A stretch of 34,103 nt of DNA from positions 1 to 34,103 of the forward strand of contig JBCCUP010000049.1 in NCBI GenBank assembly GCA_039196715.1, written 5' to 3'. Position numbers and translations under genes: made by a program. The stretch is from Pseudomonadota bacterium. Lineage in GTDB: Bacteria; Pseudomonadota; Gammaproteobacteria; CALCKW01. Numbering within the stretch: position 1 is the first letter of the stretch; every line of letters starts with the position of its first letter. The notes beneath the pieces were generated by a model. The model was given only the letters and a program-made list of their open reading frames with translations, was not told where the DNA came from and searched no databases. Positions 4,974 through 8,970 of the stretch are shown here, piece after piece.

Positions 4974-5000
4974 CGGCTTTCGGATGGATTGACGTATAAT
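4970..5000 (+). promoter_or_regulatory. Candidate promoter for scpA-scpB
   Basis: A perfect TATAAT at 4995-5000 lies 28 bases before the scpA ATG. The best upstream hexamer is CTGACG at 4970-4975 with a long 19-base spacer, so the -10 is the main support. It lies within a frame extension that would begin at a TTG at 4989, which is one reason to place the scpA start at 5028. Confidence 0.45.
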
Positions 5001-5027
5001 TGGCGAAACACCGAAGCAGGTTTTGCC

Positions 5028-6005
5028 ATGGCCCCTGCGCCCCCTGTGAGCGCGACCGAGTCAAACGCCCCCGAGCCGTCCACACACGACGCCGACGGTG
5101 CGCCGGTCCAGGCCCAAATCCCGCTCGCCGTGGTGCGTGGCGAGCGCATCATGGAATTGCCGCGCGACCTCTACATCCCGCCGGATGCGCTGGAGGTGTT
5201 CCTCGAGGCGTTTGAAGGGCCGCTCGATCTGCTGCTCTACCTGATCCGCAAGCAAAACCTCGACATACTCGACATCCCGATCACCGTCATCACGCGCCAG
5301 TACATGGCGTACATCGAGATGATGGACACCCTCCGCCTGGAGCTGGCTGCCGAGTACCTCGTGATGGCTGCCATGCTTGCAGAAATCAAGTCGAGGATGC
5401 TGCTGCCGCGGCCGGAGGAAATCGAGGAAGAGGACGATCCCCGGGCCGAGCTGATCCGGCGACTTCAGCAGTACGAGCAGATCAAGAGCGCCGCGGTGCG
5501 GATCGACGACATGCCACGGCTCGAGCGCGACCTGTTTGTCGCCTCCGCCGAGCTGCCCGAGTTGCGCCGACGCAAGCCCGAACCTGATGTCGACATCAAG
5601 CAACTGCTGCTCGCACTGAACGACGTGTTCACACGCGCCGATCAACTCGCCAACCACCACATTTCCCGCGAAGCGCTGTCGGTGCGCGAAAAGATGACCC
5701 ACATCCTCGGCGAGCTGCGCAGCGACGAATTCACGGCCTTCGCCGACCTGTTCCAGCCCGAGGAAGGTCGGCTGGGCGTGGTGGTGAATTTTCTCGCGAT
5801 TCTGGAGTTGATCAAGGAATCCCTCATCGACATCCAGCAAACTGCCGTGTTTGCGCCCATCTACCTGCGTGCCCGCGGCAGCCTCGACCCGGGACCGAGT
5901 GACGACGGTGATGACGACGGTGACGGCGACGGTGACCACGACCCGTCCTTCGATCGAGACCCGGTCGACACGGCCGAGCCCGAGCCGCTGGCGGAAGTGG
6001 GATGA
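5028..6005 (+). CDS. scpA: Segregation and condensation protein A
   Basis: ScpA is the kleisin that bridges the heads of an SMC dimer and recruits ScpB, compacting and separating chromosomes. The product has 325 residues. The kleisin N-terminus (FEGPLDLLLYLIRKQNLDIL and following) starts near residue 60. The segment LAAEYLVMAAMLAEIKSRML follows, and the C-terminal winged helix ends near VVVNFLAILELIKESLIDIQ. The tail is unusually acidic, with repeated Asp-Gly units (residues about 293-306) encoded by a GACGGT-rich stretch at 5898-5938. The ATG at 5028 has GCAGG about eight bases upstream. The stop overlaps scpB by ATGA, so the two are translationally coupled. No smc gene is in the window. Confidence 0.95.
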   Translation: MAPAPPVSATESNAPEPSTHDADGAPVQAQIPLAVVRGERIMELPRDLYIPPDALEVFLEAFEGPLDLLLYLIRKQNLDILDIPITVITRQYMAYIEMMDTLRLELAAEYLVMAAMLAEIKSRMLLPRPEEIEEEDDPRAELIRRLQQYEQIKSAAVRIDDMPRLERDLFVASAELPELRRRKPEPDVDIKQLLLALNDVFTRADQLANHHISREALSVREKMTHILGELRSDEFTAFADLFQPEEGRLGVVVNFLAILELIKESLIDIQQTAVFAPIYLRARGSLDPGPSDDGDDDGDGDGDHDPSFDRDPVDTAEPEPLAEVG

Positions 6006-7279
6006 GCCAACACAAGACACAGCACATCATCGAAGCGGCCCTGCTGACGGCGGGCAAACCGTTGAGCGTGCAGCAGCTTCAGGCGGTGTTGTCCGAAGAC
6101 GACACACCCCTCGACAGGCAATTCGTACTCGCCGCGCTCGACGGCCTCGCCGACGACCTCGCCGGGCGCGGGGTTGAGCTTCGACAGGTGGCCAGCGGGT
6201 ACCGCCTGCAGGTCAAACAGGAGTTTGAACCCTGGGTCGCGCGTTTGTTCGAGGAGCGGCCGCCTCGGTACTCGCGAGCCCTGCTGGAAACCCTTGCGCT
6301 GATTGCCTATCGGCAGCCGATCACCCGAGCCGAGATCGAGGACGTTCGCGGCGTCAGTGTCAGCAGCACGATCGTCAAAACCCTGCTCGAGCGCGAGTGG
6401 ATCAAGGTAGTCGGCCAACGTGATGTGCCCGGGCGGCCGTCGATGTACGGCACGACCAAAGCCTTTCTCGACTACTTCAACATCAAGGCGGTTTCCGATC
6501 TGCCGCCACTCGACGCGCTGCTGGATCTCGAGACCATCGACAAGCAGCTCGACATGCTCGGCGGTGGCGCTGAGCCGTCAGCCGAGTCGGTGCCGTCGGT
6601 GGACGCTGACGACATGGAGGAGGGCGACGCGGATGCCCTGCCGGCGTCGCTCGACGGTGGCGATACCGTCAGCGCTGCCCAGGGAGACGCCACGGACCCT
6701 ACGGGCGCCACATCCACCGGCGCGTCAGTGGCCGTGGCGGGTGGTGACATCGGTGGCGATGCGACTGAGATTGACACCGACGGTGATGCCACCGAGGCCG
6801 ACATCGACGGGCTCGTCGAGATGCTCGACCAGCTCGACGCGCCTGGTGACATCAGCGACGACGTGGTCACTCTGGACGGGGTGGACGCCGACGCCAGTGT
6901 GGGCGACGTGCCGGTGGATCACAACCCTGTCACCACACCCTCGGCCCTGGCGCGCAGCGGCGACACCGTGGCCGCGGTCGAGGCCGCCCGCTCGGCGCTG
7001 GCGGAGCAGGCTGAACGCGCACTGTCGGACATTGCGTCGCGTCAGGACGGTGTCGATGCCTCGGTCCAGGAAACACCCGGCCCGGCAGATGACCCGACCC
7101 TCAACGCGCTCGGCACCGAGCCCTCGCTGGAATCGGATGTGCCCGCGGCCCCACCACACGACACGGACATTGCGGCGCTCATCGACGCCGACAACCGCAA
7201 CCATGAGGCCGCGCGTGGGGAACCCGTAACCCCGGCGGACTCACTTCGGCGAAGCGCGCCCGACACCGCAGGCGATTGA
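6002..7279 (+). CDS. scpB: Segregation and condensation protein B with a long acidic C-terminal tail
   Basis: ScpB dimerises and wraps the ScpA kleisin in the SMC complex. The two winged-helix domains occupy residues 1-185 or so; recognisable blocks are IIEAALLTAGKPLS, RALLETLALIAYRQPITRAE and GRPSMYGTTKAFLDYF. Typical ScpB is about 180-220 residues. This one has 425, because a disordered Asp/Ala/Gly-rich tail of about 240 residues follows. The ATG overlaps the scpA stop in ATGA. Reading frame 0 (positions divisible by 3) stays open from 7230 past the scpB stop into the next gene, and its translation there resembles the tail. A +1 frameshift or a sequencing error joining the two is therefore possible. 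Confidence 0.93.
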   Translation: MSQHKTQHIIEAALLTAGKPLSVQQLQAVLSEDDTPLDRQFVLAALDGLADDLAGRGVELRQVASGYRLQVKQEFEPWVARLFEERPPRYSRALLETLALIAYRQPITRAEIEDVRGVSVSSTIVKTLLEREWIKVVGQRDVPGRPSMYGTTKAFLDYFNIKAVSDLPPLDALLDLETIDKQLDMLGGGAEPSAESVPSVDADDMEEGDADALPASLDGGDTVSAAQGDATDPTGATSTGASVAVAGGDIGGDATEIDTDGDATEADIDGLVEMLDQLDAPGDISDDVVTLDGVDADASVGDVPVDHNPVTTPSALARSGDTVAAVEAARSALAEQAERALSDIASRQDGVDASVQETPGPADDPTLNALGTEPSLESDVPAAPPHDTDIAALIDADNRNHEAARGEPVTPADSLRRSAPDTAGD

Positions 7280-7322
7280 GGCCACTGCACGCCGCGACAG
7301 TGCAGATCAGGCAGTCCCTTCA

Positions 7323-8420
7323 GTGCCGATGCACGACACCGTGGCAACTGGCCCCGTAGCCGGAGCTGCGGCAGCCGAAGCTGCGGCAGCCGAGGCTGAG
7401 ACGGCAAAGGGCTCGGCGATGTTGGCGGTGTCCGCCGAGCAAGACGCCGGCGTCGGCGATGCGCTGCCCGACGACGGTGGCCCTGAAACGGTCAGCGCGG
7501 CATCGGCGCGGGCGTTGGAATCGGCGCTGGAGGCCGCGTTGGCCCAGCCCGACGCACCGGCGCCCGACGCACCGGCGCCCGACGCACCGGCGCCTGACAC
7601 GGCAGCGCCTGACACGGCAGCGCCCGCCCCCGCCACCTCAAATGCCTTGGACACGGATGCGGCATCGCCGGTCGCTCCACCCGTGCCGCCCGAGGACGAG
7701 GCCGGAGCGTCATCAACCGACGACGGCGCCGTACTCGGGCGCCGTCCGGTGCGTGGTCGAAATGCAAAGACCGAGGCCGAGGCCGAGGCAGCGGACGCGG
7801 TCAGTGACGGGTCCACGGACACGGCTGAGGCAACCGGCGCGCTCGGCTGGTTGGGGCGGGCGAGTCGGTTGGTCACACGCGCAAAGCGCGCATTGACCTC
7901 GGCTCGGGCCGCATCGTCTTCGACAGCCCACGCCTCGGGGACGGCGACGTCTGCGCCGCGCAAACGCGCAAAAACACGGCGGTCGTCGACACCGCGCGCC
8001 CCGCGTGCTTCGGCGCGCACCGAGTCGAAGCGCGCCGGCCTGTTCCACGCGTTGCTGGACCGGGTGGGGTGGGGCACCCGAGCGGCACCGACCAGGCGGC
8101 GAACGACCAGGCCCCAACGTGCACGCTCGGCACCGGCCAAACCGCGCGCCCGTCGGACTGCGAGGCCGCAACCGCAACGCGGTGTGTTGTCACGCGTCTG
8201 GGCACGGATGGGTTGGGGGCGCACCGAGGCGATGGACGACTTGGATGTGGTGGCGGAGTCGACTTCGGATACAGCCACCGCCGACACGCCGGCGAAACGC
8301 ACGCGCGCAAAACGCACAGGCACCTCGACTCGACGCAAGCCGCGCAAGACCGCTGCAAACCAAACGGAACCCACGTCGTTCTGGCGGCGTGCGGTGCGGC
8401 GGTTGCTCAGGCGAGGTTAG
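7323..8420 (+). CDS. Unrecognised bipartite acidic/basic (histone-H1-like) low-complexity protein
   Basis: I do not recognise a family. From the GTG at 7323 the product has 365 residues. Residues 1-170 are Ala/Asp/Glu/Pro-rich and acidic. Residues 170-365 are Arg/Lys/Ala/Thr/Ser-rich and strongly basic, like bacterial histone-H1-type proteins. Short hydrophobic modules punctuate the basic part: GALGWLGRASRLV (172-184), GLFHALLDRVGWG (239-251), GVLSRVWARMGWG (287-299) and SFWRRAVRRLL (352-362). The spacing suggests beads on a basic string. Five tandem PDAPA/PDTAA repeats lie at residues 76-100. The start is uncertain: GTG 7323 and ATG 7329 both lack a good ribosome-binding site, and the frame is open upstream into scpB. 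Its place after scpAB suggests a nucleoid role; that is inference. Confidence 0.65.
   Translation: MPMHDTVATGPVAGAAAAEAAAAEAETAKGSAMLAVSAEQDAGVGDALPDDGGPETVSAASARALESALEAALAQPDAPAPDAPAPDAPAPDTAAPDTAAPAPATSNALDTDAASPVAPPVPPEDEAGASSTDDGAVLGRRPVRGRNAKTEAEAEAADAVSDGSTDTAEATGALGWLGRASRLVTRAKRALTSARAASSSTAHASGTATSAPRKRAKTRRSSTPRAPRASARTESKRAGLFHALLDRVGWGTRAAPTRRRTTRPQRARSAPAKPRARRTARPQPQRGVLSRVWARMGWGRTEAMDDLDVVAESTSDTATADTPAKRTRAKRTGTSTRRKPRKTAANQTEPTSFWRRAVRRLLRRG
7548..7622 (+). repeat. Five tandem 15-bp repeats inside the acidic/basic protein gene
   Basis: Three exact copies of CCCGACGCACCGGCG (7548-7592) are followed by two exact copies of CCTGACACGGCAGCG (7593-7622). They encode PDAPA three times and PDTAA twice. 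Being in-frame multiples of 15 bp, they are prone to slippage that changes protein length without breaking the frame. Confidence 0.95.
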
Positions 8421-8430
8421 GGCGTATCGC

Positions 8431-8970
8431 TCAGATTGGTGCGACCGTCAGGGTCAGCGTGTCACTGTAGGAGCCTGCGGGCACCGCGTCGAGAGCGGCC
8501 TCCGTGATGCTCACAGCGAATCGCGCGTTCACGCCACTGAGATCTGCGCAACTCGTGCTGCTCGATCCTGCCATGGTGGTGGTGTTCACCTGCCCTGAAT
8601 TGAGTGGCACGGCAGCAGCGCCGGATTGGTCATCTATCCAGCTCAGCGTGTAGGCAAGCGCATTGTTCGAGCCGTCGGTCATCTCGAAGACGCCAGTGCC
8701 GTTGGTGCTGGTGGCCTGGATGCTGTAGCTGCCCGTTGAGCTGTATACACACGCCTGGCCGTCGGCGTTCTGGTCTCCGCCGCCAGCTGTCCATTGGGGG
8801 AAATTGACATCGGTGATGTTGGTGATCAACACCACATCGCCCTTCGAAATCGTGATCTCGGCCGTGCCGGTGGAGGATGCGCCCAGGGTGCCTTGCGTCG
8901 CCGCCTGAGCGACGCCACACAACAAGAGCCCGGCACTCAGGGCGACCGGAAAGCGGATTCTCGTGAACAT
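8431..8970 (-). CDS. Small secreted beta-rich protein, spore-coat-U/pilin-like
   Basis: The 179-residue product begins with a clear signal peptide cleaved after GVAQA near residue 23. The mature protein is rich in Ser, Thr, Gly and Asn and has two cysteines (in GQACVYSS and TSCADLSG) that could form a disulfide. The end, PAGSYSDTLTLTVAPI, resembles the last strand of spore-coat-U/Csu-type chaperone-usher pilins. The start (GTLGASSTGTAEITI) resembles a family of uncharacterised secreted proteins in gammaproteobacteria. No chaperone or usher gene is nearby, so pilus assembly is not supported by context. It converges on the preceding gene with a 10-base gap and is separated from xylA by a strong terminator. 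GAGG lies about 13 bases before the ATG. Confidence 0.6.
   Translation of the reverse strand: MFTRIRFPVALSAGLLLCGVAQAATQGTLGASSTGTAEITISKGDVVLITNITDVNFPQWTAGGGDQNADGQACVYSSTGSYSIQATSTNGTGVFEMTDGSNNALAYTLSWIDDQSGAAAVPLNSGQVNTTTMAGSSSTSCADLSGVNARFAVSITEAALDAVPAGSYSDTLTLTVAPI

Follow-up and report, generated by a model that had tools for sequence, protein, structure and literature searches.

Possible recoding of scpB into a C-terminal extension carrying membrane-targeting-type helices in two gammaproteobacterial lineages

Directly after scpA and scpB in a 34,103-nucleotide contig of a gammaproteobacterium (JBCCUP010000049.1; the whole of this stretch is referred to as the window), a long open reading frame, ORF X, follows. 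It was previously read, from the sequence alone, as a free-standing gene for an H1-like protein. The question is what X is, either a gene of its own with a DNA-coating product or a part of ScpB made by recoding. The comparison of relatives suggests a recoded C-terminal extension of ScpB, and the sequence-only reading is thus partly supported, the feature being real and its nature apparently misread.

ORF X and its conservation beside scpB

The genes and the parts of X were located as follows.

4989-6005, + strand: scpA, kleisin subunit (PF02616, E 1.1e-29)
6002-7279, + strand: scpB (PF04079, E 1e-53; TIGR00281)
about 6002-6559, + strand: scpB core, followed by a 239-residue acidic tail of net charge -47 (tail alignment and charge count)
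7230-8420, + strand: open stretch of the +1 frame containing X, 396 codons, open already upstream of the scpB stop
7323-8420, + strand: ORF X, 365 residues from GTG, stop-free in translation
7845-7904, + strand: X module 1, residues 175-194, GWLGRASRLVTRAKRALTSA, amphipathic basic helix
8037-8075, + strand: X module 2, residues 239-251, GLFHALLDRVGWG
8181-8219, + strand: X module 3, residues 287-299, GVLSRVWARMGWG, with the full GΦΦxRΦΦxRΦ signature
8376-8417, + strand: X module 4, C-terminal residues 352-365, SFWRRAVRRLLRRG, strongly amphipathic basic helix

Translation, charge counts and Pfam bore out the earlier description of a 365-residue frame after scpA-scpB with an acidic half (residues 1-172, net -24) and a basic half (residues 173-365, net +40 over 193 residues). 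The GTG at 7323, located 43 nt past the scpB stop, is poorly supported as a start, the frame being open back to 7230. The four short modules described for the basic half are present and are kept in all four genomes compared. Disorder is predominant in the AlphaFold2 model of X (mean pLDDT 51), and the helices in the C-terminal half of the model (176-201, 240-247, 288-295 and 350-364) coincide with the four module sites; an additional helix was modelled at 55-73. Searches of X against Pfam, NCBIfam and PDB matched no family and nothing relevant. An antisense frame running through X (7307-8374, - strand, 355 codons) is open in the window genome only and contains stops in the other three, and was rejected as an artefact of chance or composition. 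Convergent with X, a small ORF of 179 residues (8431-8970, - strand) appears to start with a signal sequence at its N terminus and matches DUF7941 below threshold.

The four genomes, including that of the window, represent a single genus (g1) of the window's order, and three of them are labelled uncultured Granulosicoccaceae MAGs. A homologue of X lies directly 3' of scpB in all four. The homologues share only 22-36% identity, yet their modules align, as GW(R/L)G.A.RL(L/V).RAKR(A/V)L, GL(F/W)G(R)LL..VG, GLFARTLARFGFG and S.WRRALRRVLGR, and the homologue in G002 holds two near-perfect copies of a module, KKGLFGRVLARIGFGDDEP and KKGLFGRVMARFGLGEEEP. For X, pN was lower than pS in all six pairs of genomes (for example 0.33 against 0.70 in the basic half of G001 and G003). 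No credible relative was found when a profile of the four homologues was searched against 365 other gammaproteobacterial genomes; two marginal matches (E of about 0.002) were judged to be chance, their frames containing stops. The gene is therefore restricted to its order rather than spread over the gammaproteobacteria, across which the sequence-only reading had proposed to look for it. Homologues in unrelated contexts with unconserved repeats, which would have spoken against the feature, were looked for; the homologues found stand beside scpB with their modules kept. Judged by these comparisons, X is a genuine, undescribed, order-restricted protein conserved beside scpB, and its link to ScpB is likely.

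As had been pointed out, rluB is missing after scpB here, although it follows most of the gammaproteobacterial scpB genes examined with sufficient flank; members of PF00849 were found on other contigs. Identification of X as RluB was rejected, X having no Pfam match and hence no PF00849 catalytic domain. X was also rejected as a displaced tail of RluB, since the tails of adjacent RluB proteins are without modules and rluB is intact elsewhere.

The acidic tail of ScpB closes with a conserved peptide, NHEAARGE(S/P)(I/V)TPADSLRRS. Short conserved motifs within the tail (6560-7279), DI(D/E)SLV.ML, PSALAR.GDTAAAVEAAR.ALA and IA.LIDAD.RNHEAARGE, may be docking sites.

The scpB stop codon and in-frame tails in the sister lineage

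In what is here called the sister lineage, scpB loci were drawn from a family of 48 genomes, and 18 Granulosicoccaceae genomes were found to carry a conserved element at the scpB stop codon. In all 18, scpB has a long acidic tail, a TGA stop and an in-frame continuation past it. The continuation is complete on one record in 11 of the 18, with a length of 229-760 amino acids, and is cut by contig ends in the other seven; for G372, in which the element occurs on two contigs, a tail of 565 amino acids was supplied by the second contig. Assembly error does not explain the arrangement, since for G394, one of the genomes with the element, the assembly is a single contig of 7.8 Mb. Among seven element-free ScpB genes of the same family, six have 0-40 in-frame codons past their TAG, TAA or TGA stops, and in the seventh (G413) the contig ends ahead of the stop. 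The loci concerned are as follows.

L070, 7306-9588: in-frame ORF after the scpB UGA, with the element
L077, 7027-9006: in-frame ORF after the scpB UGA, with the element
L207-L219, L259 and L260: scpB loci with the element and in-frame ORFs after the UGA

Very long low-complexity repeats (VPE, EGA and AEEARQ among them) occur in ScpB tails or extensions at L207-L221, L259 and L260; several MAG assemblies appear to be interrupted at scpB by such repeats.

The sequence of the element is UGA-(A/C)U(A/G)GC(U/A)AG..., with a hairpin, CGCG-AAGGAU-CGCG, 22 nt past the stop. Its conservation in 15-nt bins is 0.64-0.90, against 0.2-0.4 in the flanks. The stem is paired in 98.5% of cases and shows seven compensatory cells, a value reached in none of 500 shuffles; the changes, C-G to A-U and G-C to A-U, correspond to about three independent events. 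A covariance model gave one strong match per genome, at scpB only (E 1e-13 to 3e-19; the next match at 0.007). Searched over 369 gammaproteobacteria, the element gave one real match, at the contig coordinates of G401, and one spurious match. An Rfam scan of the window matched a tRNA alone.

Two other ways of making the sister tail were considered. Decoding of UGA as selenocysteine was excluded since SelB (PF09107) was found neither in any of the 16 genomes with the element that were tested nor in the window genus, with the E. coli control positive. The other is a start at the non-standard AUA or CUA just past the scpB stop, with no readthrough. The codon after UGA is AUA in 11 of the 18 genomes, and AUA is a nominal start of translation table 11; the remaining seven, however, have CUA (as UGA-CUAG, six genomes) or CUG (one) at this position. 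Neither a conserved start nor Shine-Dalgarno spacing was found, and in every case the stop is UGA with the tail in frame, which makes such a start very improbable. As for the standard starts, ATG, GTG and TTG are all missing for 16-59 codons past the TGA in the 16 genomes measured, and the first such codon is not homologous among them.

Substitution patterns past the stop differ with the group and the region. In one sister group, codons 9-25 past the stop gave pS 0.41 and pN 0.16 in frame 0, a sign of purifying selection in that frame, the other frames holding stops, whereas codons 1-28 of group B showed no synonymous bias (0.24 against 0.26). Within the 42-nt post-stop element frame 0 was the best by pS/pN (rank 0.03), and constraint at the RNA level dominates.

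The conserved TGA, the long in-frame ORF, the lack of an alternative start and the covarying 3' structure together make programmed UGA readthrough in the sister lineage highly probable. This is the strongest and most surprising part of the account, and by these comparisons it is well supported.

SelB is present in the three element-free family members (G378, G383 and G390). Its distribution relative to the scpB element (0 of 16 with the element, 3 of 3 without; genomes within G369-G415) may reflect an incompatibility or shared ancestry.

The conserved block at the scpB 3' end and the +1 frame

In the window genus X lies in a reading frame different from that of scpB, so that frameshifting instead of readthrough would be needed to join the two. 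The relevant features lie at the 3' end of scpB.

7203-7252, + strand: ultraconserved RNA/DNA block, candidate +1 frameshift signal
7204-7243, + strand: 13-bp hairpin, directly abutting CUU-CGG-CGA (7244-7252)
7244-7246, + strand: CUU codon, proposed P-site slip codon (CUU to UUC/UUU/UUA) by analogy with the CUU of prfB (PMC5009743)
7203-7229, + strand: +1-frame mini-ORF, ATG..TAA, MRPRVGNP*, overlapping the block

All 14 codons for conserved residues in the block are invariant when the four genomes are compared; in the scpB core this holds for 13 of 120 (Fisher 6e-12). The block is present once per genome in all four, and a genome-wide repeat was thereby dismissed. The hairpin is the minimum-free-energy fold in 4 of 4; a single G-C to G-U is the sole change in its stem, and all other changes up to the end of the stem fall in the loop. 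Among the four genomes no compensatory change was observed, and the folding z-scores are modest (-1.2 to -2.0). The hairpin is followed by CUU-(C/U/A)GG-CGA, with CGG, UGG or AGG as the A-site codon. CUU, invariant in the four genomes, accounts for 5.6% of the Leu codons in the window genes sampled; CGG, at 25% of the Arg codons of the window genome, is not rare, and AGG is rare. Upstream of the CUU, GGCGGA is a poor match to a Shine-Dalgarno sequence.

Relative to scpB, X occupies the +1 frame in each of the four genomes, and this frame runs on without a stop from the block, past the end of scpB, into X. The joint probability that it stays open by chance as far as the first start is about 5%, which is non-negligible and was calculated with the CUU misplaced in G002. 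The constant +1 frame of X and the ultraconserved block at the end of scpB make +1 frameshifting into a ScpB-X fusion plausible in the window genus.

For comparison, CUU is the slip codon of the +1 frameshift in prfB, and in the bypassing of T4 gene 60 the ribosome is believed to be pushed forward by 5' stem-loops that zip up behind it (PMC5009743). The block resembles prfB in its CUU, in the +1 direction and in having a conserved candidate stimulator upstream. It differs in having neither a stop codon in the A site nor a clear Shine-Dalgarno sequence 3 nt upstream, an upstream hairpin being found instead; the purpose would also differ, since the prfB frameshift serves autoregulation, while two isoforms would be made in the window genus (PMC5009743).

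The same region can be read in another way, with X as an independent small gene coupled to scpB by reinitiation, the block as a regulatory hairpin or leader mini-ORF, and the product as a free scaffold binding membrane, nucleic acid or ScpB. GTG or TTG codons are found 7-61 nt past the scpB stop in all four genomes, and coupled genes in different frames are ordinary in bacterial operons. The mini-ORF overlapping the block fits this reading as well. It varies at two bases, where the changes are silent in the +1 frame but alter the residue in scpB. Both bases also lie within the hairpin loop, and the mini-ORF is possibly a leader peptide or a coincidental by-product of the loop. Against an independent gene, neither a start codon nor a ribosome-binding site of X aligns among the four genomes, the +1 frame is open before the scpB stop in each of them, and the equivalent sister tail is without a usable start codon. 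An independent X is a possibility to be taken seriously, though we lean against it. The comparison of relatives speaks for X as a recoded extension of ScpB and against the free-standing gene that had been assumed.

Membrane-targeting-type helices and a tethered form of ScpB

The sister tails vary greatly in length and content, including coiled-coil and acidic repeats, and are mostly not H1-like. Complete sister tails end in a basic amphipathic helix, such as PKGFVKRWAGRFVSWLKRFVGFE or PAGLFRRVFSRLMRLVKSLPRRIFNRRRK. A common signature, GΦΦxRΦΦx(R/K)Φ, was found in all four X proteins and in 6 of 12 complete sister tails, the other six being without the strict form. The expected background is 0.0075 matches in total, and other long ORFs, 137,702 residues together, contained none; for the X homologues, shuffles gave about 0.001 expected matches per protein.

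The hydrophobic moment (muH over 11 residues) is 0.53-0.80 for the modules of the window and its relatives in the genus, except for module 1 of G002 (0.39). The reference membrane-targeting peptides, those of FtsA, FtsY, MinD and RNase E (the last from PMC12594526), gave 0.48-0.84, so that the moments of the helices match those of the references. With their positive charge and high hydrophobic moment the modules appear to be amphipathic helices of the membrane-targeting type, and they would be expected to bind membrane. Of the earlier idea that the modules are knobs for protein contact, the amphipathic repeats themselves stand; their interpretation as contact sites is equalled at least by the resemblance to membrane-targeting helices.

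This bears on the view of X as an H1-like DNA-coating protein whose hydrophobic knobs touch ScpA, ScpB or SMC at several points. Its basic linkers are rich in Ala, Pro, Lys and Arg and account for the charge of +40, the scpB neighbourhood is kept, and the linker RSAPxKPRxxRT is partly conserved among the homologues. The Lys/Arg/Ala-rich composition is also shared with HC2 (PF07382). Family membership, however, is lacking for both H1 and HC2: the window X itself gave no match, and only one of the homologues reaches HC2 at all, with E 0.063 and 13.8 bits, far below the cut-off of 40. Unlike HC2, X has interspersed amphipathic modules and an acidic half. The modules are not simply hydrophobic knobs but amphipathic, and the sister tails, while keeping the helix at their end, consist mostly of acidic or coiled-coil sequence. 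The H1-like identity proposed earlier is thus improbable.

With X taken as a recoded C-terminal extension of ScpB, the following scheme is proposed. The majority of ribosomes would terminate at the scpB stop and give soluble ScpB. In the window genus, a minority would slip +1 at CUU-NGG, beside the conserved hairpin, and produce ScpB-X; in the Granulosicoccaceae, a fraction of ribosomes would read the UGA, probably as Trp, and produce ScpB with its tail. In its extended form ScpB would carry a long acidic, disordered chain and, after it, a basic one bearing amphipathic helices. These helices, of the type known from RNase E, FtsA and MinD, would most likely hold part of the SMC-ScpAB at the inner membrane; in the window genus the +40 linkers may bind DNA or RNA as well, so that the complex is anchored or positioned. 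Recoding would suit a cell that needs a constant small share of its complexes anchored. That X is such an extension, forming a minor isoform with a membrane- or nucleic-acid-tethering tail, is a reading to which we give, mechanism included, slightly less than even credence. A wider proposal, in which the two lineages independently recode scpB, by UGA readthrough and by a +1 frameshift adjacent to a hairpin, to hold a fixed fraction of SMC-kleisin at an anchor as a dual-localised condensin, is put forward as tentative and somewhat doubtful. In the ScpB tree the window genus and the readthrough lineage are not sisters, with weak backbone support, and the window gene therefore need not work like the sister tails; the tail arrangement may be either convergent or anciently shared.

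The nearest functional parallels appear to be the readthrough-targeted enzymes MDH1 and LDHB and the protein RocS (PMC13042908). UGA-CUA(G) is the readthrough motif that gives dual-localised enzymes in fungi and animals (PMC4207609). The sister scpB resembles MDH1 and LDHB in this motif (6 of 18 genomes), in the conserved 3' sequence with a small structure, and in an in-frame tail with a localisation signal, the membrane role of the scpB tail being presumed. It differs in that the protein is a bacterial condensin subunit, the tail has hundreds of residues, and the codon after UGA is AUA in eleven genomes and CUG in one. RocS of Streptococcus pneumoniae links the chromosome to the membrane by a C-terminal amphipathic anchor (PMC13042908, PMC11500499), as proposed for X; no sequence relation was recognised between the two, and RocS differs in having a DNA-binding domain of its own and in its interaction with ParB. 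The membrane-targeting sequence of E. coli RNase E is QPGLLSRFFGALKALFS (PMC12594526). RNase E shares with X a short amphipathic helix of the form GLLSRFFGALKALF beside arginine-rich disordered RNA-binding stretches; X differs in having no RNase domain, in its three or four helices, and in being attached to, or encoded after, ScpB.

Our literature search found no description of programmed stop-codon readthrough for a bacterial condensin subunit. If the proposal is true, it would be a rare case of chromosomal readthrough in bacteria with a covarying RNA element, and would show a route to a tethered minority form of SMC-ScpAB at a set ratio. It would also explain the disordered 'orphan' that gene finders place after scpB, and ORFs beginning right past a conserved UGA may be tails rather than genes.
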